From Verrucomicrobiaceae bacterium (GTDB lineage Bacteria > Verrucomicrobiota > Verrucomicrobiia > Verrucomicrobiales > DEV007), in NCBI GenBank assembly GCA_012719225.1, contig JAAYAT010000104.1:1-37631 (forward strand): a stretch of DNA of 37,631 nt, in the 5' to 3' direction. Each line of letters opens with the position of its first letter. Position 1 is the stretch's first letter. The notes beneath the pieces were generated by a model. The model did no database searches. It had not been told where the DNA came from and was given only the letters and a program-made list of their open reading frames with translations. The position numbers were made by a program, and so were the translations under genes. Shown piece by piece: positions 1,563 through 33,049 of this stretch.

Positions 1563-3008
1563 TTACAACTCCCGCAACTCCCCGAGCATTTCGAGAAGTG
1601 CTTTCGTCAGGATCACCGAGCTGTCCTTTTCGAACTTCGAGGTTCCGATCCAAGTTTCGTAGCCGCCGAGTTCGTGTTGGTGGGGAGGGGGCAGATAGCC
1701 GTATCCACCGTTGGCCAATGAGATGGTGAAGATGTGGGGAAAGGGGCTTTTCGCTTTGATCTCAAGGCCGATCTCGACGAGCACTTCGAAGGGCAGCGAG
1801 ACGATGGCCTGGTCGCCGATGCGGATCGCCTGGACGAGGACTTTTTCCTTTTTGTCCGGCTCGGAGTATTGCACGGTGGCGTTGGCGTATTGGATGGCGC
1901 GGCGGTGGAGGGAGGCGCGATCCTTTTTGGGCAGTTCGAGCAGCCGCATGGCGTGTTCGATTTCCTCCACGGTCATGTTGCGGTAGGTGAGTTCCACCTC
2001 GCGCTGACGCATCGCCACGACGGGATTCTCGTCGTAGTTTTCGATTTTTTTCACCGCCCTCCACGAAGCGTCGGCGGTTTTCGCGGCGACGATGCGGATC
2101 TGTTCGAAGGGGGAGCGGGGCGGACGGGTCCGGTGAAAATCGATATTGTTGATGTCGCCGCTGGTGCCGTTGGTCATCATCGCGACGAAGTTCTCCGGCG
2201 GGTTCGATCCGCCGACGCGGTAGGGCATGATGCGGGCGAATTCTCCGTAGTAGTCGGCCGAAGCCATTCCCTCCGCTTTTCCCTTTTCATTGGTCGCGTC
2301 GGGGATGCCGCCGACATAGTGCAGCGAATAGTTCGCGAGCAGGCCGAGGGGGCGACCGCGGCGGGTGCGGACATCGACCACGCAGACTTCGGGGTCGGTC
2401 GGCCCGGCCGGCTTGAGCAGTTTGTCGCGAGGAGCGTTGGTCTGGACCTGATCGATTTTGCCAAAGGGATTCGGTTCCATCGTGCCGGGCTTGAGATGCC
2501 AGCGCCGGTTGTAGACTTCGGAGGCTTCTTCGTCGGAGGAAAAACCGACCTCGGCCGCTTGGAGCGACTCGATCGCCCCGGTCAGGGCAGCGATGATTCC
2601 TTCGCGCCGGAGCGCCTCGTAGGCGATGCGTCCCTCCGAACTGTCGCCGCCCTTCGGAGCGGTGTGGGTGTGGGTCGCGCTCACCAGCATCGCGGTGACC
2701 GGCCATCCTGTTTTCTCCGCGACCACCGCCTTCGCCGCGTCGGTCATCTCGCGGCCCACTCCGATGGCATCGACGAGGGCGATGACCGCCCGTCCCTCTC
2801 CGTTCTGAAACGCAAGGGCGCGGACGTGGAGGGGATCATGCACGGAACTCGAGGCACCGGAGCGCAACTGAAACGGAACCACCGTCGGGGTGATGTCAAC
2901 GACCGCGCTGCCTGCCTGGAGACCGCTTCTGTCTTGCGCGGGCAGTGCCGCGGGGAAAGCAAAACAAACACAGGCGGCGAGGGTTGGCAAAAGAAAGGGA
3001 GCTTTCAT
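1563..3008 (-). CDS. Secreted neutral/alkaline ceramidase-like protein
   Basis: This 481-residue protein begins with a signal peptide (MKAPFLL...FPAALPAQ, cleavage near residue 25) and is therefore exported. The mature part starts with GSAVVDITP, the usual opening of the neutral/non-lysosomal ceramidase N-terminal domain. SATHTHTAP (H113, H115) matches the zinc-binding HTH motif. NYSLHYVGG (H230) supplies a further candidate ligand, and TNGTSGDINNID (about 280-290) sits where ceramidases carry their NTGD-type catalytic loop. The protein is shorter than true ceramidases (about 650-700 residues) and lacks the C-terminal domain. Proteins of this kind are abundant in Verrucomicrobia and Planctomycetes, where they may be hydrolases of unknown amides. 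It is transcribed divergently from the primase-like gene. Confidence 0.75.
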   Translation of the reverse strand: MKAPFLLPTLAACVCFAFPAALPAQDRSGLQAGSAVVDITPTVVPFQLRSGASSSVHDPLHVRALAFQNGEGRAVIALVDAIGVGREMTDAAKAVVAEKTGWPVTAMLVSATHTHTAPKGGDSSEGRIAYEALRREGIIAALTGAIESLQAAEVGFSSDEEASEVYNRRWHLKPGTMEPNPFGKIDQVQTNAPRDKLLKPAGPTDPEVCVVDVRTRRGRPLGLLANYSLHYVGGIPDATNEKGKAEGMASADYYGEFARIMPYRVGGSNPPENFVAMMTNGTSGDINNIDFHRTRPPRSPFEQIRIVAAKTADASWRAVKKIENYDENPVVAMRQREVELTYRNMTVEEIEHAMRLLELPKKDRASLHRRAIQYANATVQYSEPDKKEKVLVQAIRIGDQAIVSLPFEVLVEIGLEIKAKSPFPHIFTISLANGGYGYLPPPHQHELGGYETWIGTSKFEKDSSVILTKALLEMLGELREL

Positions 3009-3117
3009 CGGGGAGGCATCGTATCTCTTTTGGGCCTCGTCCCGCCAGCCCGCAATTGCGTCTGATTCCGAGCGAAAGACAAAACCCGGTTGCGGGCGTG
3101 GTGCCGCGCGCGTCGAC

Positions 3118-3145
3118 TTGCTGCGGACACTTGGGCTTGTATTTT
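3118..3145 (+). promoter_or_regulatory. Weak candidate promoter upstream of the primase-like gene
   Basis: TTGCTG (3118-3123) and TATTTT (3140-3145) are separated by 16 nt in the 200-bp divergent gap between the ceramidase-like and primase-like genes. Matches to the sigma-70 consensus are 3/6 and 4/6, so this is only a suggestion. The GAGAGG at 3195-3200 is a plausible ribosome binding site for the ATG at 3212. Confidence 0.25.
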
Positions 3146-3211
3146 TCGCCGAAATTTCAGAGACTGGGTTGTCCTCTCCAGGCCTGCTGTCCGTGAGAGG
3201 CAGTGGATGTT

Positions 3212-4642
3212 ATGGATATCTCTTCTCCAGAGAAGGACCGTATCCTTACCGATTTCCCCCTCGAAGAGGATGCGGTGCGGCAGCGCATTGTCGATTACCT
3301 CGGCGGACGAACACCGGCGACGGCCACGTGCATCCATCTGGCGAGCTGCGATTCGGCGGACCCGTCTCGGATCGAGCGATGGCCGGTGGCGGAACTGGAT
3401 CGTCTCCTCCACAGCGGGGTGGGGGTGGCCCGTTCGCTCTACGACAGCCGTTCCGTCCTCGTGCATCTCGACATCGAGTATGTCAATCACGACGCCCCGG
3501 CCGAGGCCTTCACCAATCCCCGTCGAGCCTTCCGAGGACAGGAACCCGTCGTCGCGAAAATCGAGGAGTTGCTCGCGGGCTGGGGGATTCGTCCCCTCCA
3601 TCTCCTCACGGGCCAGGGGCATCATTTTGTCTGGCGCTTCGCCCGGGAGTCCGAGCTGGAGCGTCGCATCGCCCATCTCTTTCCCGGGGTGTTTCCGGTA
3701 GGGGGGGATCGGGTCTTCGCCCATCTCGCCTTGCTCATGGATTATTTCGCGTTCCGGATCAAGGCGGAGGTGGAGGCCGGGGCGGATTCGGAGCTGCCGG
3801 TCGAAATCACCGCGATTCAGGTGGTGCCGGGCGCGGCGGGGGAGCGCGAATTGGTCTCGATCGATATTTCGGAGTATGGGGACCCTCTCGCCTCCCGCAC
3901 CATCCGGATTCCTTTCACCCGTTATCTGAAGCCTTGGAATTCCGGTCTGGCCCGCCGCCTCGGATTGGAAAAGCAGATCGTTCCCTGTGTCTGCCTGCCG
4001 CTCCACGAGATCGACGTGGAGCGAGCGCTCCGCGTGCGGGAGGATCCCCGCGCGGTCGCCGCTCTCGCGAGGCGCTGCTGCACTCTCATTCCCGATGAGG
4101 GGGAGGGAACGACCCGTCTGCTGGAGGACTACCTCGGTTCGGCGACGCGGGCGTTTCACCAGCGTTTTTACGAAGCCGAACACGATTCGCCCGAACTCTG
4201 GCCGGTGACCTACGCGCGCACGCCGCTGGAGGATTTGCCGGGCTGTGTGCGACACACCTTGCAGTATCCCAACGATCTCCTCCTGAAGCCGGCCGGTATG
4301 CGGCTCGCGACGCGGTGTCTCCTCGCCAAAGGTTGGCATCCGCGGCATATCGCGGGGCTGTTCCGGTCCAAGTTCGAGGATCCTTCCTACGGATGGATGG
4401 GCTGCTGGGACGGGTATTCGCCCGCTTTCCGGGCGGACTTTTACGTGCGTCTTTTCGCGGGGCAGATCGCGCTGGGGCTCGACCGGCTCGAGGATTTCCA
4501 CTGCGACGCCTTGCGGGAACAGGGGTTCTGCCGGGAGGGCGAGCCTCCCTGTGACGTGGCCCCCTATCGCGAGGCCCTGACACCGGGTCGCGTGGTTTCC
4601 GAGCGTTCCCTCCACCTCCAACCGACGCGAAGCGATGAGTGA
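3212..4642 (+). CDS. Predicted archaeo-eukaryotic primase (PriS-like) with PriL-like Fe-S C-terminus
   Basis: The protein has 476 residues counted from ATG 3212, which has GAGAGG 11 nt upstream. A GTG at 3203 would add three residues but lies only 2 nt from that site. The N-terminal half shows the three motifs of the archaeo-eukaryotic primase (AEP) fold in order: VHLDIEY (D87, E89; metal site), LTGQGHHFVW (G134, G136, H137; the SGxGxH nucleotide motif) and VSIDIS (D218) followed by TIRIPFTRYLKP (R and K at about 232-240; the LIRLPxSLHxKTG-like strand). The C-terminal part has LPGC (C345), then a helical stretch with RLATRCLLAKGW, then FHC (C431), GFC (C440) and PPC (C447). This is the C...CxxxxxxGxCxxxxxxC layout of the primase large-subunit iron-sulfur domain. 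A primer-making or gap-filling polymerase is inferred. No helicase or mobile-element gene is adjacent. It overlaps the next gene by 8 bp. Confidence 0.65.
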   Translation: MDISSPEKDRILTDFPLEEDAVRQRIVDYLGGRTPATATCIHLASCDSADPSRIERWPVAELDRLLHSGVGVARSLYDSRSVLVHLDIEYVNHDAPAEAFTNPRRAFRGQEPVVAKIEELLAGWGIRPLHLLTGQGHHFVWRFARESELERRIAHLFPGVFPVGGDRVFAHLALLMDYFAFRIKAEVEAGADSELPVEITAIQVVPGAAGERELVSIDISEYGDPLASRTIRIPFTRYLKPWNSGLARRLGLEKQIVPCVCLPLHEIDVERALRVREDPRAVAALARRCCTLIPDEGEGTTRLLEDYLGSATRAFHQRFYEAEHDSPELWPVTYARTPLEDLPGCVRHTLQYPNDLLLKPAGMRLATRCLLAKGWHPRHIAGLFRSKFEDPSYGWMGCWDGYSPAFRADFYVRLFAGQIALGLDRLEDFHCDALREQGFCREGEPPCDVAPYREALTPGRVVSERSLHLQPTRSDE

Positions 4643-5483
4643 CTGGCCCTGCGGCATATCGACCGGGTGTTTTTACCAAACCCCGATTCTGGAAGCTCTC
4701 CCGAGAGTGCGGGACGGGGGATTCACCCTCATCGAGGTCTGTTCTTTTCCCGCTCACCTCGACTACCACGACCGCGATCGGGTCGAAGCGGCCGCCGCGC
4801 TGATGCGGGATCTCGGGATGGAGGCCAACTCCATGCATGCGCCGTTCGCCGAACACATCGACATCTCCAGCGGCGATCACGGGCGGAGGGAGAACGCGGT
4901 GCGGGCGCTCTGTCGGGCGAGTGAGGCGGCGGCGGCGCTGGGCTGCCGTTATCTCGTGCTTCATCCCGGCCCCGAGCAGGAGGGCAAACCGTCTCCGGAG
5001 GAATGGTACTGGCGGATGCGGCACGCTGCGGATTCGCTCAACCGGGTTGCGACGCGCTGCCGGGAGCTCGGCTTGATCCTGCTGTTGGAAAACATGCTGC
5101 CGCATCTGCTTTTCGGGCACGCCAGCGACATGCTCTGGCTGCTCGGGGCGATCCGCGAGACCAATGTGGGGACCTGTCTCGATACGGGGCACGCTTCGCT
5201 CTCGGGCGATCTCCCCACGGTGGTACACAAACTCTCGGGCCATCTGCGCATGCTCCACGCCAACGACAATCGAGGGGATTGGGACGATCACCTTCCGCCG
5301 GGCGAAGGGCACATCGACTGGCCCTCGCTGATCTGCCAATTGCTCAAGTGGCGATTCCAGGGCCCGCTCATTCTCGAACTGGCCGGACACGGAAGCCCCG
5401 ATGAGATCATGGAGCGGGCTCGCCGCGCGCGGGAATTTCTCGGAGAACTCTCGCGCCGGGCCGAGGTGGAATGCGGTACCTGA
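4635..5483 (+). CDS. Endonuclease IV / xylose-isomerase-like TIM-barrel protein
   Basis: This 282-residue protein belongs to the AP_endonuc_2 TIM-barrel superfamily, which holds endonuclease IV and many sugar isomerases/epimerases. Candidate equivalents of all nine zinc ligands of E. coli endonuclease IV are visible at similar spacing: H68 (SMHAP), H110 (LVLHPG), E152 (LLLEN), D183 and H186 (CLDTGH), H208 (MLHAND), D217 and H219 (WDDH) and E248 (LILEL). Length is close to endonuclease IV (285). Much of this pattern, including DDHLPPGEGHIDW, also occurs in proteins annotated as sugar phosphate isomerases, so the motif alone does not settle nuclease versus isomerase. The start overlaps the end of the primase-like gene (ATGAGTGA), implying translational coupling and favouring a DNA-related role. 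Confidence 0.75.
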   Translation: MSDWPCGISTGCFYQTPILEALPRVRDGGFTLIEVCSFPAHLDYHDRDRVEAAAALMRDLGMEANSMHAPFAEHIDISSGDHGRRENAVRALCRASEAAAALGCRYLVLHPGPEQEGKPSPEEWYWRMRHAADSLNRVATRCRELGLILLLENMLPHLLFGHASDMLWLLGAIRETNVGTCLDTGHASLSGDLPTVVHKLSGHLRMLHANDNRGDWDDHLPPGEGHIDWPSLICQLLKWRFQGPLILELAGHGSPDEIMERARRAREFLGELSRRAEVECGT

Positions 5484-5580: not shown

Positions 5581-5982
5581 ATGGCAAAGGGCAGGGCAGA
5601 ACACGACGCGCGGATGGCGGCGTTGCAATCTTTCGGGAAAGATCTCGCCCGTCGGGCCAAGTCGAAATGCGAGTTGTGTGAGAGGGCGGGGGAGAAGCTG
5701 CGTATTTTTGAAGTGCCCCCTGAACAGCGGGATCCCGATATGGGGCGCTGTCTCCTTCTCTGCGGACGTTGTTACGAACAGGCCGACGAGCCCCGGCGCT
5801 TCCAACCCGGCGAACATTGGCGCGTTCTCGCGGGGATGGCGTGGAGCGAAATTCCCATGGTCCAGGTGATGGCGGTGCGCTTGTTGCGCCGCCAGCAGGA
5901 CACCCAGGCCTGGGCCAGGGAAGCCCTCGCGACGCTCGATCTCGAAGAGGAGATGGAAACGCTCGTAACGGAATGCGTTTGA
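5581..5982 (+). CDS. PhnA-like zinc-ribbon protein
   Basis: The 133-residue protein starts at MAKGRAEHD. A CELC pair (in AKSKCELCERAG) and a CGRCY pair (in LLLCGRCYEQ) form a likely zinc-binding ribbon, separated by a hydrophobic strand ending in EVPPEQR. The downstream HWRVLAGMAWSEIPMVQVMAVRLL segment is the hallmark of PhnA-family proteins found in Bacteroidetes and related groups (…W..L...MWSE.P.VQV...R.L). Despite its name PhnA is not required for phosphonate use, and the biochemical role of this family is uncertain. The ATG at 5581 was chosen over an upstream in-frame ATG at 5401 because the family alignment begins here and the upstream stretch lies inside the TIM-barrel gene. It lies 97 bp after that gene, so cotranscription is possible but not clear. 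Confidence 0.75.
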   Translation: MAKGRAEHDARMAALQSFGKDLARRAKSKCELCERAGEKLRIFEVPPEQRDPDMGRCLLLCGRCYEQADEPRRFQPGEHWRVLAGMAWSEIPMVQVMAVRLLRRQQDTQAWAREALATLDLEEEMETLVTECV

Positions 5983-8490: not shown

Positions 8491-9715
8491 CGACGGCATT
8501 CTTTACGTCGATGACGAACACAAGTCGCTGAAGTATTTCGAGGCGATTTTCGGGCATCTCGCCCCCATCTATCTGGCGCGGAGTCCCGAGGAGGGCTTTT
8601 CGCTTTTTGAAAAACATCACGCGCGAATCGGCATCGTGGTGAGCGATCAGCGCATGCCCAACGAATCCGGCCTCGAGCTCTTGCAACGCATCCGGGCGGT
8701 CGATCCGCGCCCGCTCCGCTTTCTCGTGACCGCGTTTTCCGACCTGGACGTGGCGGTGGATTCGCTCAACGACGGGCTCCTCTATTCCTACCTCACCAAA
8801 CCGTGGGATCCCCAGGAACTGGAACACCGTCTCACCAAGGCGATGAACCATTTCCATCTTGTCCACGAGCGGGAGCAACTGATCCTCGACAAGACGGATG
8901 CGATCCAGCAACTCATGATGGCGGACAAGGCGGCCAGCATCGGCATCCTCTCGACCGGGCTGAACCATCACCTGCGCAACGCCCTCACCGTCCTGCGCAC
9001 CTTCCACGATCTGCTGCCCTTCCAACTGGCGGAAGAACTGGAAAGCCAGCCGAAGGACACCGTATTCTGGGGCGAATACTACGGCGAGGTCGGCAAGCAG
9101 ATCGACCGCATGACCTCCATTCTCACCAATCTCTCCGAAGGCACCAAGGCCGACGGTCTCCGGATGCAGGAAGGCGTCGATCTGTCCGGCATCCTCACCC
9201 AGGCCGGCGAGATGGTTCTGGAGCACAGCCCCCACATCACCTACACCGTTCGGGAAGACACCGCCATCCCGCCTCTCGTCGGCGATCCGCAAAAACTGGC
9301 CCAGATGGGGCGGTTCCTTTTCGAGGAATCGCGTTCGACCCTGACCAAAGGCGGTGCGGTCGAGGTGCGTTTGGCCGCCCTCGACGACGGTGCCACCGTC
9401 GAGGTGACCTTCATGGACAGCGGGGAGCTCATTCCCGAACTCGATCTGGAACGGCTCTTTGATCCCTTCTTCGTGCGGGCCAACAAACCCGAAGAGCTGG
9501 GCACCAATCTCATGGCCTGCTACCTCACGGTCTACCACCACGGCGGCACGATCCGGGCCGCCCGCACCGCCGACGATCGCAATGCCGTGATCTTCACCCT
9601 GCCGGTCGTTCCGGTGGAGGATCCCGACACGGACTACTCCCGCCGCCGCCTCGGACGCGTCGCGGATTTCCGGCACCAAGATCTCAGCCGTGCCGAGGCC
9701 GCGCTGACGGCGTGA
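8471..9715 (+). CDS. Receiver domain fused to a degenerate histidine-kinase module
   Basis: The 414-residue protein begins with a complete receiver domain: acidic pair D14/D15 (VDDE), phosphoacceptor D59 (VVSDQRMP), T87 and K110 (YLTKPWD). A helical linker leads to an HisKA-like helix with LNHHLRNAL (H166), in which the glutamate normally following the phosphohistidine is H167. The ATPase-like part is eroded: the N box reads FLFEESRSTL without its asparagine, G1 reads MDSGELIP, and the G2 glycine box is replaced by ELGTNLMACY, although LFDPFF and HHGG are kept. It is probably a phosphorylation-responsive protein without kinase activity, acting downstream of, or bound to, the kinase encoded just before it. 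No DNA-binding output domain is present. Confidence 0.82.
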   Translation: MSAPFPDDGILYVDDEHKSLKYFEAIFGHLAPIYLARSPEEGFSLFEKHHARIGIVVSDQRMPNESGLELLQRIRAVDPRPLRFLVTAFSDLDVAVDSLNDGLLYSYLTKPWDPQELEHRLTKAMNHFHLVHEREQLILDKTDAIQQLMMADKAASIGILSTGLNHHLRNALTVLRTFHDLLPFQLAEELESQPKDTVFWGEYYGEVGKQIDRMTSILTNLSEGTKADGLRMQEGVDLSGILTQAGEMVLEHSPHITYTVREDTAIPPLVGDPQKLAQMGRFLFEESRSTLTKGGAVEVRLAALDDGATVEVTFMDSGELIPELDLERLFDPFFVRANKPEELGTNLMACYLTVYHHGGTIRAARTADDRNAVIFTLPVVPVEDPDTDYSRRRLGRVADFRHQDLSRAEAALTA

Positions 9716-10135
9716 GTTTTTAGGAGTTAGGAGGAAGGGTCGCTCTGTGCGGGCGCAGGGACTTTCTGGAAAAAGGTGGGGACTTCGCGCCACGAAGTGG
9801 GGCCGATTTGGGCGCTTTTTGGCGGGAATCGGGTGTTTTTCGGGAAAAATGCCCGATTTCGGGTGCTTTTGGGCGGATGCGGGGGCGAGAGGGGGACGTT
9901 TCTCTACCGGGCGGGAGATTTCCCCGTCTTCTGGTGCCGACCTGCAAGCGGCAAGTGCCCGCCCACGCCTACCAAGTCGCGGCGGGAGAAAGGAGCGCGG
10001 GCATTCCTGCCCGCGGCGGAAAACGCCTGACAACCGCCTCCCCCAACGACGAAAAAACCTGGCGCTCAAAAAGTTTACCCCGTGGGGAGGCACCCGCCAT
10101 CCCTGAAATTTCTTCGTGATACTTTTTGCCCGATT
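9716..10135. other. Repeat-rich region without a supported gene
   Basis: Open frames on both strands here are low-complexity and mutually exclusive. The sequence contains imperfect repeats of a TTTCGGGTGCTTTT-like unit (about 9805-9880) and the hairpin listed at 9996-10015. I see no conserved protein motif. Confidence 0.5.
9996..10015. repeat. Perfect hairpin, likely dispersed repeat
   Basis: An 8-bp stem (9996-10003 with 10008-10015) encloses a TTCC loop, reading CGCGGGCA-TTCC-TGCCCGCG. The motif looks like a dispersed intergenic palindrome seen in this kind of genome; copy number cannot be judged from the window. Confidence 0.45.
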
Positions 10136-10200
10136 TCCCCGCTGAGGCGCGGAGGGAAGGACTGAAAAAAAATCTCTGCGCCCCTGCGCCTCTGCGGGGA
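10136..10200. repeat. REP-like imperfect inverted repeat
   Basis: A left arm at 10136-10156 (TCCCCGCTGAGGCGCGGAGGG) and a right arm at 10181-10200 (CCCCTGCGCCTCTGCGGGGA) are imperfect reverse complements around an A-rich centre. The CGCCTCTGCGGGGA type of arm resembles interspersed palindromic elements common in environmental bacterial genomes. It abuts the gene remnant that follows. Confidence 0.5.
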
Positions 10201-14672: not shown

Positions 14673-14732
14673 GGGAAAAGGTAGGGGTGGATGGTTTTGG
14701 TTTTCAGCCGGCTTCGCGGCAGTTTCCAAGGC

Positions 14733-17700
14733 CTACTGTTTCACCAGCGAGGCGAGGTAGTCGAGCAGGCTGGCGGTCTCGTGGATGGAAAAGTTCGCCA
14801 TCAGGCCGGGCGGCATCATGCTGGTGGGGAGGGTCTCGCGGGTGACGATGTCCGACTTCCGGAAGGTGTGTTCTTGCGCGGCGATGTCGCGCAAGGTGAC
14901 TTGAGCGCCCTGTTCGTCGGTGACAAATCCCATCATCGTGCTGCCGTCCTCGAGGCGAAGGACGTTGGTGGCGAAGCCCTGGGCGATGGTCTTGTTGGGT
15001 TCGAGAATGGCGGCGGCGAGGTCCGCGCGGGGATAGGTCTCGATGATGTTGCCGAGGTAGGGGCCCTTCGGCTTCTCGCCCCGGCTCACGGTGTGGCAGG
15101 CGGAGCAGGTGGCGCGGGCGAAAACGGCTTCGCCGAGGGCGGCGTCACCGCTCCCGTGGGCGAGGACGGCGGCGAGGGCCTGGTCCGGCGCGAGGCTGGC
15201 GATCTTCGGGGTCTTGTCCTCGGCTTTGGGTTGGAGCTTGAGTTTCTGCATCGCGGATTTCGCGGCCTTGGCCACCGCCGGATCGGGATCGTTCGCGGCG
15301 GCGAGGATGCGGTCGTCGAGGGAGCGGTTTTTCGTTCTCGCGGCGGCGGCGAGGAGCACGACCTTCTGCGCCGGAACCTTCCAGGCGGCGTCGAGAGCCT
15401 TGCGCGAAAGTTCGTGCGATTCGGGCGAGCCGCCGGTGCGCGAGGCGAGGGCGAGAACGGCGGCGTTGGCCCAGAAGCCCTCGGGGCTTCCGGCTTGTTC
15501 GGCGGCGATGCGCTCGACAAGGAGGTGATGGTTTTCCAGTTTTGGTGCTTCGAGGAAGGTCTTGCCCGCGTCTTCGAGTTGCTTCTCCGCTTCGATCAGG
15601 CGGAAGCGGATCGCTTTGGCGTCGCCTTCGCTGGCGGCCTTTCCCTCGGCGCGGAGGGCGGCGAGGTGCGTGTCGAAATTCGCGAAGGCGGCGAGGATGG
15701 CGTCGAAGGGTTCGCGTCCGTCGAGTTGGCTCAGCGCGGAGATGGCTTGCCGCAGGGTCACGCTGCCGGAGTTCCCGTCGGTGGCGGCGCGGAGGAGCAG
15801 GGCGACGCCCTCGGCCGGGATCGTTTCGGCCCCGGCGAGTTGCTGGACGGCGTCGGGGATCATCGCGGGATTTTCCTCCGCGAGCGTGAGGATGCGGTGC
15901 AGCGCCGCGTCGGATTGGAGGCGGTTGCGGCTCATCTCCTTGACGAGAAAGGACGCTTCCTCCGGGGGAGCGGTGTCGAGCACGGTCTGGAGCGCGGCGA
16001 GAATTTTGTCGGTTTCGGCCCACTTCACCGGCTGGTAGTAGGGGCCGCGGGTGTCGGGCCGCGTCCCCCAACTGTCGCCGGTCCATTCGCCTTCGCGCTG
16101 GGCGAGGCGGCAGAGGACGGAGAGAAGAAGCTGGCGGGTTTCGGGACGCTTTTCTTCGGCGAGGGTGGAGAGCAGGTCATCGACGACGTCGGCTACGTCG
16201 TGCATGCGCATGAGGGCGAAGGCGGCGAATTTCGGATTCGGGCCTTTGAGGAGAGCCATGAGAGCGGCGTCCTTCGCGCCGAGTTTGGCGAGGGCTTGGA
16301 AGGCGGTGTGGGCGACGCGGGGATCGGGGTCGGCGAGGAGCTTGGCGATGGAATCGGCGGCGTCCAGATCGTTCCGCCGCGCCGCCGCGATGAGGGCTTC
16401 CAGGCGAGTGCGAGGGTCGCTGCTTTTCTGTAAGGCCTCGTGGACCCAGGAGGAAGGGAGGGCTTCGATATCGCCGACGGCACGGAGCGCGTAGGGGGCG
16501 ATTTCCTTTTCCCGGAGCAGTTCGCTCAGTGATTCGGCGGCGGCTCCTTCGCGCAGGGTCAGGGCGTAGAGCGCCGCGACCCGCGTCTTGAGATCTTTGT
16601 CCGTATTTTCTGCCGCGGCGAGCAGTGCCTCGGACATGACAGGGTTGGCCGGGCGACGCAAGAGGGTTCGCTGCGCCGCCAGGGTGCGGACGTGGCTGGG
16701 GGAATCGAGAGCGGCGATCAGTTCCTCGTCGCTCATTTTATCGAAATCGGGCAGCGGTTCGGGTTGGTATCCCTTGGGGGTGACCCGGACGATGTAGCCG
16801 ACCTCCGGCCCTTCCCACTTGAAGGTTGCGGGGCCTTTCCAGCTTGCCTGGTAGACGGCGCTGTTGCCATCCACGTCGGCGTCGGTGGGGCGGGTCATTT
16901 CGATGAAGGGACGCGGCGCGGTCGTCTCGACGAAACTCGCGCCCTGCCGCTGCACGCTGTGATGGAAGGAGGCGCGTTTTCCCCAGTCGCAGGTGACGGG
17001 GGCGTGGTTCCATTCGTCGGGAAAGCCGGGCTCGTGCAGATAGACCGAGCCGCAACCGGAACCGCCGCCGTAGTCGGCGAGGGGATGGACGTGTTCCTCG
17101 GGGAAGTTCTGGTAGAGACGCGGGTAGCCGTGGTCCTCCAGTCCGGTGAAGTGGTGGAAACGCACGTCCCAGCCACCGCCGTCGTTGGTGTTGTCGCGGG
17201 CGAAGAGATCGCAGAGCGGACTCATCGGGGTGCCGAGAATGTTGCGGGTGCCGGTGGCGAAAATCTCCAGTCCGGTTCCGTCGGGGCGCACCCGGAGGAC
17301 GCCTCCGGCGCGATGCTGGACGGTGCGTCCGTCGGTGCCGGTCGCTTTCAAAAAGCCGAAGTCGCCGCCGGCGATGTAGAGCCAGCCGTCGATGCCGAGT
17401 TCGAGTCCGTTGGTGGTGTGGTCGGCGGAACGGTCGGCGAAACCGAAGGCGATACCGTCGATGAGTTTTTGCGATTCCTCGGCGATGCCGTCGCCGTCGC
17501 GATCAAAATAGACGCTGAGATGCGGCGGATGGACGAGGTAGAGCCGGTCGTGGTCCCAGACGAGACCGCGCGGGGAATCGACTTCTTTGACAAATTCGGT
17601 CACCTCGTCGGCGCGTCCGTCGCCGTCGGTGTCGCGGAGGCGTAGGACCCGTCCGCGCCCGGGATCGCGTCCGAGGGAGCCGTTGCCGTCGCTGGAGACG

Positions 17701-19235
17701 TAGAGGGCGCCGTTGGGCGCGGCGGCGACGTAGACGGGATAGTTGGCGGCCTGCCAGTTTGAGAAAAGGGTGAGGTCGAATCCTGCGGGCACTTTGACGT
17801 CCTTGAGGATGTCGGCCTCTTCTTTCGGGGAAAGCGTCACGATTTTCGGAGCGATGTTGCCTCCCTTGGCGTAGGGATCGGCGGCTTCCTTGGCTTTGGC
17901 GGCGGCGGTGGTTTTCGCGGCCGCCGCCTGCTTCGCGTCGAGCTTGGGATGGAGCTTGGTCAGGCCGGGGCCTGTGAGCGAAATCTCGCGGATGCTGGCC
18001 CAGCCTCCTGTCCGGGTCCCGACACAGGTGATTTTGAGAAATTTCGCGTCCGTCGCATCGAAAGTCAGGGAACTGTCGCCGGGCGGCGTCTTGTCCCCGG
18101 TGCGGACGAGCGTTTTCCAGGCCTTGCCATCCAGGGAGGTTTCGATCTGGTAGCCATAGGAATTTCCGGCGCTCTCCCAGACGATTTTTGCTCCTGTGAG
18201 GGGCTGCGGCTTCTCGAACTCCAACTGGATCCACTGCGGCATCGCACTGTTCGCGGCGCACCAGCGGGTCTCGCGGTCGCCGTCGATGGCGTGCCAGACG
18301 AGGTTGTTTTTGCCGGTCTCCTCGCTGCTGGCGGTGACGGTGGCGAGGCTGGCGTCTTTGGGCGCGGGGGACGGAACGACGGCCTTCGGAGCTTCGGTTT
18401 TGGGCTTCGCCGGCTCGAAGGTGACGGTGTTCTCGTCGGTGTAGGCGCTGCCGAGGTAGCCGTCTTCGTCGAGCTTGCCGGTGGCCCAGAGGAGACCGCG
18501 CACGACGAGGTCGAGGTAGCGGGCGTCGTCCACCGTGGCGGTGTTGTGTCCGAGGCTGGTGCTGAAGCTGCGGGCGCCCTGTTTCTCGTTGGTCCAGGCG
18601 ACGATGGCGACCTCCTCCCGCTCCTGCCCGTCGCGCTTCACGATCTGTCGGCCCATCGCGAGGGGATGGGCGTCGAAGACGTTGACGTTGTTGTAGAGTT
18701 CTTCCTTGATCGTAGTCCAGTTCTCCAGTGGTTTTGTTATGGGATGCTCGGGATCGACATACTCCACCGAGATCGGCTCCTGCGGTCCATGCGAACTGGA
18801 CTGGATCCCGAGATGCTGGAACCACTGGTCCGTTCCGTTGCGGAAGCTGTGCATGGCGCAGTGGAGATGCACCGCGGGGATGGTCTGATGCGCGTCGAGG
18901 ATCCGCTTCATCACGGCGAGGTCCTTGTTCCCGGCGGCGCATTCGTCGTGGATGACGACGTCGTAGCCGGCCGCCCAGTCGTCTTTGTCGTAGAGCGTCA
19001 GGGGCGGGTTGGTGGATTTGTCATCGGACCACCAGACGTCGACGCGGACATTGGCCCGCGCCTGGATTCCTTCGGAAAGGCTTTTGTGTTGTCCGGCGTA
19101 GTCGTGGCAGCAGCCGCCCGCGATGAGGAGCGCCCGGATCGGCTTTTTCCCGGTTTGCGCGAACGAGGGGGACAAAAGAAACGTCCCGAGCAGGACGAGG
19201 CTCGCGGTGGAGAGAAGCGGGGGCAGGGTTTTCAT
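14733..19235 (-). CDS. Giant secreted ThuA / discoidin / propeller / HEAT / cytochrome c protein
   Basis: This 1500-residue protein has a signal peptide (MKTLPPLL...LSPSFA). Domains in order: a ThuA-like domain (about 30-265; IRALLIAGGCCHDY, VHLHCAMHSFR, GHNTATVDDARYLDL), an F5/8 type C (discoidin) carbohydrate-binding domain (about 295-425), a short Ala/Lys-rich linker, a PVC membrane-bound-dehydrogenase-type beta-propeller (about 470-850; PAGFDLTLF, DTDGDGRADE, THTNGLE-like DHTTNGLELG, GTRNILG), a long HEAT-like helical repeat region (about 860-1340) and a C-terminal cytochrome c domain with CSACH at 1377-1381 and MMPPGLM as likely distal methionine. The architecture suggests exported oxidation of a sugar or polymer with electron transfer through heme. 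The substrate is unknown. The propeller and HEAT boundaries are approximate. Confidence 0.82.
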   Translation of the reverse strand: MKTLPPLLSTASLVLLGTFLLSPSFAQTGKKPIRALLIAGGCCHDYAGQHKSLSEGIQARANVRVDVWWSDDKSTNPPLTLYDKDDWAAGYDVVIHDECAAGNKDLAVMKRILDAHQTIPAVHLHCAMHSFRNGTDQWFQHLGIQSSSHGPQEPISVEYVDPEHPITKPLENWTTIKEELYNNVNVFDAHPLAMGRQIVKRDGQEREEVAIVAWTNEKQGARSFSTSLGHNTATVDDARYLDLVVRGLLWATGKLDEDGYLGSAYTDENTVTFEPAKPKTEAPKAVVPSPAPKDASLATVTASSEETGKNNLVWHAIDGDRETRWCAANSAMPQWIQLEFEKPQPLTGAKIVWESAGNSYGYQIETSLDGKAWKTLVRTGDKTPPGDSSLTFDATDAKFLKITCVGTRTGGWASIREISLTGPGLTKLHPKLDAKQAAAAKTTAAAKAKEAADPYAKGGNIAPKIVTLSPKEEADILKDVKVPAGFDLTLFSNWQAANYPVYVAAAPNGALYVSSDGNGSLGRDPGRGRVLRLRDTDGDGRADEVTEFVKEVDSPRGLVWDHDRLYLVHPPHLSVYFDRDGDGIAEESQKLIDGIAFGFADRSADHTTNGLELGIDGWLYIAGGDFGFLKATGTDGRTVQHRAGGVLRVRPDGTGLEIFATGTRNILGTPMSPLCDLFARDNTNDGGGWDVRFHHFTGLEDHGYPRLYQNFPEEHVHPLADYGGGSGCGSVYLHEPGFPDEWNHAPVTCDWGKRASFHHSVQRQGASFVETTAPRPFIEMTRPTDADVDGNSAVYQASWKGPATFKWEGPEVGYIVRVTPKGYQPEPLPDFDKMSDEELIAALDSPSHVRTLAAQRTLLRRPANPVMSEALLAAAENTDKDLKTRVAALYALTLREGAAAESLSELLREKEIAPYALRAVGDIEALPSSWVHEALQKSSDPRTRLEALIAAARRNDLDAADSIAKLLADPDPRVAHTAFQALAKLGAKDAALMALLKGPNPKFAAFALMRMHDVADVVDDLLSTLAEEKRPETRQLLLSVLCRLAQREGEWTGDSWGTRPDTRGPYYQPVKWAETDKILAALQTVLDTAPPEEASFLVKEMSRNRLQSDAALHRILTLAEENPAMIPDAVQQLAGAETIPAEGVALLLRAATDGNSGSVTLRQAISALSQLDGREPFDAILAAFANFDTHLAALRAEGKAASEGDAKAIRFRLIEAEKQLEDAGKTFLEAPKLENHHLLVERIAAEQAGSPEGFWANAAVLALASRTGGSPESHELSRKALDAAWKVPAQKVVLLAAAARTKNRSLDDRILAAANDPDPAVAKAAKSAMQKLKLQPKAEDKTPKIASLAPDQALAAVLAHGSGDAALGEAVFARATCSACHTVSRGEKPKGPYLGNIIETYPRADLAAAILEPNKTIAQGFATNVLRLEDGSTMMGFVTDEQGAQVTLRDIAAQEHTFRKSDIVTRETLPTSMMPPGLMANFSIHETASLLDYLASLVKQ

Positions 19236-19344
19236 CGAAGAAGGGCCGGGGACTTTGCGCCATGCTGGTCCGGGCGGCGCGATCCGTCAATCCCGTATCA
19301 ACGTCCGCGACCCCGGCCGTGTTCTTCGCGAGGACCCGCCCTTC

Positions 19345-21018
<1,674 letters not shown>

Positions 21019-31688: not shown

Positions 31689-32963
31689 TCAGACGATGGT
31701 GCCGTCGGGGATCACGGTTCCCTTGGGGATCACGACGATGCCGTCGCGGATGTGGCAGAATTCGGAGTCCTCGTTGACCCGGTCGCCGGGATGGATCACG
31801 ACGTCCCGGCCGATGAGGGCGTTCTTGTCGACGATGGCGCGATGGATGCGGGTGTTCTCCCCGATCTTGATGGGCCATTCTTCGATCTTGTTGTCGTCGT
31901 GCATCCCGATCTTGTTGTAATAATCCGATCCGATGATGATCGTGTCGGTGATTTCGCAGCCTTTCTCGATGACCGAGCGCACCCCGATGATGGAGCGCCG
32001 TATCGTCGCGTCGGTGATGATGCATCCGTCGGAGAGGAGCGCCTCTTCGATGACGGCGTTGTTGATCTTGCTCGCGGGGAGCAGTCGGGCCCTCGTGTAG
32101 ATGGGGTTGTGCGCGTCGAAGAAATTGAACTTCGGCACGATCTTGGTACACTCGAGGTTGGCCTCGTAGTAGGATCCTATCGTTCCGATATCCTCCCAGT
32201 AGCCGGTGAAAATGTGGCTGTAGACGTTCTTTTCCTCGATGATGCCGGGAATGATGTGTTTGCCGAAATCCTGCGAGTCGTTCTTGAGGGCGTCCTCGAG
32301 GACCCGGCGATTGAACAGGTAAATGCCCATGGAGGCCTGGAAGCGTTCCTCGTCGAGAGGCAGATCGACCGACCGGAGCAGTTCGGGTGGCATCGCCAGT
32401 TTGTCGAGGGTGGCGTCGTCGTCCCCCGGCTTTTCGACAAAGCGGGTGATGCGGCTCTCGGCGTCGGTGTGCATCAGCCCGAAGGCGCGGGCCGGTTCGC
32501 GCGGGACCGGGGTGGTGGCGATGGTGACGTCTGCGCCGGTTTTCCGATGTTCGCTCAGCATTTTGCGGAAATCCATGCGGTAGAGCTGGTCGCCGCTGAG
32601 AATGAGGAAATACTGGTAGGGGCGCTCCAGGAAATAGCTGAGGTTCTGCCGGACCGCATCGGCGGTGCCCTGGTACCAACTGTCGTCGCCGGGAGTCTGC
32701 TGGGCCGCGAGGACGTGGACGAAATTTTCCCCGAAATGGTCGAACTTGTAGCCGCTGGTGACGTGGCGGTTGAGCGATTCGCTGTTGAACTGCGTCAGCA
32801 CGTACATCTGACGGATCCCGGAATTGATGCAGTTGCTGATGGGGATGTCGACGATGCGGTACTTGCCGGCGAGCGGGACGGCCGGCTTGGAGCGCTTGTG
32901 GGTGAGGGGAAAGAGGCGGGAACCCTGTCCGCCACCCATGATGATGGCGAGGACATTGTTCAT
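31689..32963 (-). CDS. glgC: Glucose-1-phosphate adenylyltransferase
   Basis: The 424-residue enzyme makes ADP-glucose from ATP and glucose-1-phosphate for glycogen synthesis. The start at 32963 gives MNNVLAIIMGGGQGSRLFPLT; upstream ATGs at 32990 and 33044 would add 9 or 27 non-conserved residues. GGGQGSRL is the nucleotide-binding loop, WYQGTADAVRQN the activator/ATP region, ILSGDQLYRMDF carries the catalytic aspartate and FVEKP the sugar-phosphate lysine. The C-terminal left-handed beta-helix (from about 290) has hexapeptide repeats such as VIEEALLSDGCIITDATI. It is divergent from glmS across a short shared promoter region. Confidence 0.95.
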   Translation of the reverse strand: MNNVLAIIMGGGQGSRLFPLTHKRSKPAVPLAGKYRIVDIPISNCINSGIRQMYVLTQFNSESLNRHVTSGYKFDHFGENFVHVLAAQQTPGDDSWYQGTADAVRQNLSYFLERPYQYFLILSGDQLYRMDFRKMLSEHRKTGADVTIATTPVPREPARAFGLMHTDAESRITRFVEKPGDDDATLDKLAMPPELLRSVDLPLDEERFQASMGIYLFNRRVLEDALKNDSQDFGKHIIPGIIEEKNVYSHIFTGYWEDIGTIGSYYEANLECTKIVPKFNFFDAHNPIYTRARLLPASKINNAVIEEALLSDGCIITDATIRRSIIGVRSVIEKGCEITDTIIIGSDYYNKIGMHDDNKIEEWPIKIGENTRIHRAIVDKNALIGRDVVIHPGDRVNEDSEFCHIRDGIVVIPKGTVIPDGTIV

Positions 32964-33049
32964 GGGTTTGAGCGAAAGGGATTTAGGCATGGGTGATTGG
33001 ACTGTACAACAAAACAGCGCGAAACGGCATAGAATTCGTGACAAATTTT

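Follow-up and report, generated by a model that had tools for sequence, protein, structure and literature searches.

A verrucomicrobial chromosomal AEP with a likely PriL-type cysteine domain and its obligate endonuclease IV-like partner

Introduction

What is the role, on a bacterial chromosome, of a primase-like protein that joins AEP motifs and PriL-like cysteines in one chain, and whose gene overlaps that of an endonuclease IV-like TIM barrel? Fused PriS-PriL-type enzymes have so far been known from plasmids and viruses, and those AEPs of bacterial chromosomes whose function is known have ligases as partners. A gene pair of this kind, here called A and B, lies within a stretch of 37,631 nucleotides of a Verrucomicrobiaceae contig (JAAYAT010000104.1), referred to below as the window. 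A preliminary description of the pair, made from the sequence alone, had proposed a two-protein abasic-site or gap-repair system.

The A-B locus

The features of the locus are listed below, with coordinates in the window.

3212..4642, + strand: gene A, fused AEP with a likely PriL-type cysteine domain, 476 aa; ATG at 3212, TGA at 4640-4642
3269..4159, + strand: AEP (Prim-Pol) catalytic domain of gene A, approximately residues 20-316
3470-3478, + strand: gene A motif D87-x-E89
3611-3625, + strand: gene A motif G134-x-G-H-H138
3863-3865, + strand: gene A D218
3896-3931, + strand: gene A R229/R232/K240
4175..4579, + strand: likely PriL-type C-terminal helical domain of gene A, approximately residues 322-456, with C345, C431, C440 and C447
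4635..4642, + strand: overlap of the A stop and the B start, 8 bp, ATGAGTGA
4635..5483, + strand: gene B, endonuclease IV/xylose-isomerase-type TIM barrel, 282 aa; ATG at 4635, TGA at 5481-5483

The 8 bp overlap between the stop of A and the start of B, first noted in the preliminary description, was confirmed to the base, and the sequence is consistent with translational coupling of the two genes. Overlaps of 4 or 8 bp are also common in relatives. A GTG at 3203 provides an alternative start that would lengthen A by three amino acids. An antisense ORF of 550 codons (3005-4657) spans gene A and is a shadow ORF of the GC-rich coding sequence. Elsewhere in the window, long ORFs without a Pfam match are found at 14691-16433, 17949-19394, 19123-20730 and 31752-32996, at least some of which may be shadow ORFs or represent unknown families.

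The residues first singled out in A (D87-x-E89, G134-x-G136-H137, D218 followed by RIPFTRYLK, and the cysteines C345, C431, C440 and C447) all lie at the positions given for them. These motifs stand above chance because the catalytic residues are invariant, and the cysteines mostly kept, in an alignment of 58 gene A homologues, from which all conservation counts for A are taken.

The AEP catalytic domain of gene A

Searches with gene A, both as a single sequence and as a profile, gave no match in Pfam (best E 0.2), NCBIfam, PADLOC, PHROG or the PDB sequences. A match to a curated profile is not defining for the AEP superfamily, so this result marks a divergent family; its homologues were located in Verrucomicrobia. 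Nine residues (D87, E89, G136, H138, D218, R229, R232, P234 and K240) are invariant across the 58 homologues, and they include those of the three AEP motifs: motif I (hhhDhD/E) is present as VLVHLDIE, containing D87 and E89; motif II (sxH) as G136-H-H138; and motif III (hD/E with downstream basic residues) as D218 with R229, R232 and K240. Motif II had previously been read as G134-x-G136-H137; G136 is invariant, and the better histidine is H138 (58/58) rather than H137 (54/58).

An AlphaFold (AF2) model of gene A, built from 15 aligned sequences, had a mean pLDDT of 84.9 and a pTM of 0.87. In a second look at the PDB with VIA-align, model residues ~7-316 matched more than 30 AEP entries at Z 9-16, the top match being Prim-PolC of M. 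smegmatis (Z 16.0, 253 aa, rmsd 3.5 Å), with the LigD polymerase domains (PolDom) at Z 13.3-14.6, CAPP at Z up to 12.9 and PriS at Z about 10-11. Foldseek alone likewise ranked Prim-PolC first (E 1.9e-3). Comparison of the AEP part by hhalign with phage AEPs, archaeal AEPs and PriS returned nothing, so the AEP relationship is visible in the fold only. The fold match of the model and the invariant motifs together bear out the AEP catalytic domain that had been proposed for A. Judged from the model, the N-terminal part is an active-looking AEP, and the gap-filling Prim-PolC and LigD enzymes come closest to it in fold.

The C-terminal cysteine domain

The C-terminal domain of gene A is helical in the model (pLDDT 83.4) and contains the cysteines in the spacing C345-x85-C431-x8-C440-x6-C447, which is the PriL-CTD pattern of four in order, with the first and second far apart and the second and third close. 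C345, C431 and C440 are kept in 54/58, 53/58 and 54/58 homologues, respectively; the fourth cysteine occupies the same column in 41/58 and is displaced by a few residues in several others. The Asgard protein Gerd_ePriL has its cysteines at C252, C334, C343 and C388, a spacing of x81 and x8 (PMC12770985). In archaeal PriL-CTD, an N-terminal helical part is followed by a two-cysteine linker and one helix (PMC2852410), and the gene A model has this same layout, its two C-terminal cysteines lying in the linker that precedes the last helix.

Alignment by hhalign with the C-terminal domains of four fused primases from viruses (gp40 of Thermus phage P23-45, its stolb1 relative, gp99 of Haloarcula virus HCTV-16 and IMG/VR contig L098) gave a probability of 87.8% and E 3.3e-6, with cysteines 1-3 aligned; 20 column-shuffled controls reached at most 1.03%. 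The value falls to 29.9% once eukaryotic sequences and one haloarchaeal sequence join the viral set, and two eukaryotic PriL-CTDs alone gave 2-3%, with the register right for the first cysteine only. The PriL sequences used for comparison were drawn from viral/plasmid records and PDB chains. The query for the viral/plasmid PriL sequences was a consensus that scores as PF04104, and only the database sequences it returned served as evidence; the human PriL-CTD query was verified residue by residue in PDB 5f0q. Two of the viral proteins, P23-45 gp40 (L099:1778-2794, 338 aa) and L098:1404-2294 (296 aa), are short primases in which an AEP domain and a cysteine module resembling PriL-CTD share a single chain; gp40 is annotated just as primase or small subunit, and HCTV-16 gp99 carries the annotation small subunit plus large subunit.

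In gene A itself, hmmscan found no match to PF04104, and the isolated C-terminal domain retrieved only weak unrelated matches and no PriL chain from Foldseek and VIA-align, so the relation to PriL rests on sequence profiles and layout. The earlier proposal of a PriL-type cysteine domain in the same chain is upheld by hhalign, spacing and layout, but not by Foldseek retrieval. From these sequence comparisons, the domain is likely, rather than proven, to be related to PriL-CTD, and it probably carries a 4Fe-4S cluster. In genome G125, one homologue (L006; L062) no longer has any of the four cysteines, yet its AEP motifs are intact and gene B still lies next to it. The joint loss of the cysteines fits a shared ligand role, and it also indicates that the putative cluster is not essential everywhere and is dispensable in that lineage. 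Cluster dispensability has also been reported for Sulfolobus priming (PMC5700102).

One alternative reading, damage tolerance rather than excision repair, makes A a bacterial counterpart of PrimPol, starting strands beyond lesions by means of the PriL-type domain, with B trimming or cleaving damaged 3' ends or AP sites in the gap. The fusion of this domain to a catalytic domain with intact residues agrees with such repriming, as does the finding that the PriL domain provides primer initiation in PriSL (PMC5700102). However, the closest AEP folds, Prim-PolC and LigD PolDom, belong to gap-filling and end-joining polymerases, and the homologue without any of the four cysteines keeps the rest. Human PriL needs R306 for initiation, and by eye this residue has no obvious counterpart in gene A. 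Repriming is considered unlikely, although it deserves more weight than the other alternatives.

Gene B, an endonuclease IV-like TIM barrel

Gene B matches PF01261 (E 1e-41). Nine residues, H68, H110, E152, D183, H186, H208, D217, H219 and E248, are invariant in 12 homologues of B and line up with the chains of endonuclease IV in the PDB; on the basis of E. coli Nfo and these alignments, we take them to be the trinuclear metal ligands of endonuclease IV. A D-tagatose 3-epimerase chain has no counterparts of H110 or D217-x-H219, and its alignment starts beyond H68. The TIGR00587 (nfo) model gives gene B 32.5 bits, below the curated cut-off of 129.65, and the best NCBIfam model, NF041277 (CbiR), gives 59.2 bits, below its cut-off of 105. 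The nearest solved structure is MJ1311 (E 9e-25), listed as uncharacterized and not a proven nuclease, which shares the ligand set of gene B. Of the endonuclease IV-type partner originally described, then, the nine ligands are kept, but the score lies below the curated Nfo cut-off. That score, with MJ1311 as the nearest solved structure and bearing the same ligands, places gene B in a separate subfamily; going by its sequence, it is probably a metal phosphodiesterase.

With a score under the Nfo cut-off, and with MJ1311 and, of the NCBIfam models, CbiR nearer to it, gene B could have a substrate other than DNA. B might be a sugar-phosphate isomerase or a cobamide-type phosphodiesterase, and the pair would then act outside DNA repair, for example in RNA or nucleotide metabolism. 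This accords with MJ1311 being the nearest structure and CbiR the best NCBIfam model, even if below cut-off. It is difficult to square with the occurrence of B (E 1e-40) only together with the AEP in 387 genomes, with a full trinuclear site unlike that of simple epimerases, or with the lack of cobamide genes among the annotated neighbours, and a non-DNA substrate is considered very unlikely.

Linkage and spread of the pair

A survey of 387 genomes of the order, with B counted at E below 1e-40, found A in 69 genomes (18/50 genera) and B in 67, never without A. All B genes (68/68) follow immediately after A in the same orientation, so the adjacency of the two genes is kept across relatives, with B present in 67/69 A genomes; in the two that have A without B (G550 and G422), the contig ends exactly there. 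Pairwise distances of A and B correlate (r = 0.84, 33 gene pairs), a value to which shared ancestry contributes, and A and B are inherited as one unit. Most sampled members of the genus to which the window belongs do not carry the pair, and in the trees the families are intermingled. This patchy spread and mixing of families indicate transfer and/or loss of the pair as a unit.

In one genome (G506) A and B are both decayed, and another (G066) has two diverged A-B pairs (L058, L059). More distant, shorter A homologues without the cysteine tail and without gene B are present in G040 and G052. These short relatives, of ~430-450 aa and with all catalytic residues, are found at L065:7148-8512 (+) and 8843-10156 (-), and at L064:154-1443 (-); in G052, two of them face each other.

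Genomic setting

The neighbours of the pair in the window are genes for a phosphotransferase, a ceramidase-like protein, a small CxxC protein, a cytochrome-like protein and a two-component system. The small protein (5584-5979, +) has two CxxC pairs and no Pfam match, and its gene comes right after gene B. It recurs behind B in the closest relatives only, and was for that reason rejected as a conserved third gene. No integrase, helicase, ligase, Rep or mobile-element family was detected in the scanned ORFs of the window, which agrees with the initial observation that no helicase, ligase or mobile genes lie alongside. Neither a ligase nor a glycosylase is a general neighbour of A-B, and the other carriers have no general neighbour. 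Genes for Usp, Hsp20, Dps, Host_attach/baeRF, topoisomerase IB or exonuclease VII lie near some copies (L068, L069, L080, L081, L084, L085, L059, L077, L092, L079 and L089), which suggests that these pairs are located in stress islands.

At the sensitivity used, no homologue turned up in 50,697 phage and 72,556 plasmid records searched by tblastn or in 2.9 million viral contig records searched by pattern scan. These results bear on the possibility that A is the replication primase of a mobile element, comparable to PrimPol-PV1 or PolpTN2, that has stayed behind on the chromosome, as might be supposed since most known proteins with fused AEP and PriL-like parts come from plasmids and viruses (PMC5862659; HCTV-16 gp99, P23-45 gp40). 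The lack of phage, plasmid and viral-contig homologues at the sensitivity used, and of integrase, helicase and Rep genes in the scanned ORFs, argues against such an origin, as do the metalloenzyme partner found in every full-length case and the motif II histidine, which PolpTN2 does not share. It is the least probable of the readings considered, and highly doubtful.

Patchy spread, even within one genus, is also what would be expected of a defence or accessory system. In an anti-phage or anti-plasmid role, B would cut foreign DNA, perhaps at modified or missing bases, and A would copy or tag the product. The pair is patchily distributed inside genera as well as families, the trees intermingle families, and AEPs are known in CRISPR-associated CAPP (PMC8211822) and in TOTE conflict systems. 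Set against this, neither A nor B matches a PADLOC family, and the 42 neighbourhoods compared contain no recurrent defence genes beside A-B, whereas stress genes lie near some copies; a defence function appears improbable.

The genome to which the window belongs contains DnaG, on which ground the reading of gene A as the replicative primase was rejected, and has no Ku, on which ground NHEJ was rejected. ExoIII is present, a point against the repair reading, since the genome does not lack AP-site cleavage as such. There is no canonical Nfo, and the sole match to the Nfo profile is gene B. Across the order, canonical Nfo occurs in 16/387 genomes, none of which has A (0/16; Fisher p = 0.087); with this p value and with nearly all Nfo carriers in one genus, it is not claimed that B replaces Nfo.

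Proposed function

The reading preferred here, held at about an even chance, is that A and B make up a DNA repair module of two proteins, encoded on the chromosome, for excision or gap repair. It draws on the AEP fold and invariant catalytic residues of A, its likely relation to PriL-CTD, the nine ligands of B, the linkage of the two genes, the stress and repair genes near some copies, and the LigC/Prim-PolC precedent, by analogy with which A would fill or prime gaps that B makes or cleans. B, as a metal-dependent phosphodiesterase, would incise abasic sites or remove blocked ends, and a short gap ending in a 3'-OH would result. A would bind the gap or exposed single strand and either fill it or lay a new primer, with rNTPs or dNTPs, while its PriL-type domain would grip the template together with either the initiating nucleotide or the 5' end downstream; a host ligase would then seal the strand. 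The overlapping frames could ensure matched amounts of A and B, perhaps in a complex. Fold, motifs and linkage of the pair were computed; activity, substrate and cluster are what we infer.

A bolder form of this proposal sees A-B as a bacterial chromosomal 'incise and reprime/refill' machine, in which the catalytic module and a PriL-type Fe-S initiation module are combined in one chain, with a new subfamily of endonuclease IV-like proteins as its obligate partner, and which has moved between verrucomicrobial lineages as a unit. It is put forward tentatively, as something short of an even chance. Ranked roughly by likelihood, the alternatives to a repair module run from repriming through defence and a non-DNA substrate of B to a mobile-element origin.

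A text search found no description of the A-B pair in open-access papers; most subscription papers and all preprints lie outside its scope. We rate A as a new AEP family and A-B as a new obligate pairing, built from folds that are already known. If the proposal is true, the coupling of such a chromosomal AEP, with its PriL-type cysteine domain, to an obligate partner resembling endonuclease IV would constitute a new kind of repair pairing. A-B would then offer a simple two-gene system for asking whether the PriL Fe-S module acts outside replication, a question for which a natural cysteine-less variant is available for comparison.

Comparison with known systems

The best fold match of the gene A catalytic domain, mycobacterial Prim-PolC, is likewise a chromosomal AEP, at about 12-13% identity. 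Unlike gene A, Prim-PolC lacks a cysteine domain of PriL type and shares its locus with a ligase; the fixed partner of gene A is a TIM barrel, with no ligase adjacent. Of the linked ligase and/or Ku that characterise the LigC/LigD Prim-Pols, no ligase is found among the scanned neighbours of A-B and no Ku in the genome. Prim-PolC binds and fills short gaps with a preference for rNTPs, its complex associates with excision-repair enzymes, and LigC was pulled down by tagged endonuclease IV (PMC5663958).

PolpTN2 of the Thermococcus plasmid pTN2, HCTV-16 gp99 and P23-45 gp40 join an AEP and a PriL-type Fe-S module in one chain, as gene A probably does, but these are plasmid or virus genes and gene A is chromosomal. 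PolpTN2 has Gln in motif II, together with PriCT-1 and winged-helix domains (PMC5862659), while gene A keeps the motif II histidine. The AEP domains of the viral fused primases show no profile similarity to gene A by hhalign, and no endonuclease IV-like partner is annotated beside those fused primases that were looked at. Gene A also differs from PrimPol-PV1 (PolpTN2 and relatives) in showing no association with mobile elements, either in the phage, plasmid and viral collections or in the scanned ORFs of the window. With the archaeal/eukaryotic replicative primase PriS-PriL, gene A shares an AEP-proper-like fold (Z about 11) and the PriL-CTD cysteine layout; PriS and PriL, however, are two separate subunits that serve replication, and the genome of gene A has DnaG.

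Among relatives of gene B, CbiR is a PF01261 cobamide phosphodiesterase described from a verrucomicrobial host (PMC7733943). It belongs to the same superfamily, but gene B falls below the CbiR cut-off and has no adjacent cobamide genes. With endonuclease IV (Nfo), gene B shares the TIM barrel and the nine presumed trinuclear metal ligands; it differs in forming a separate subfamily, nearest to MJ1311, which in the order surveyed occurs only together with A.
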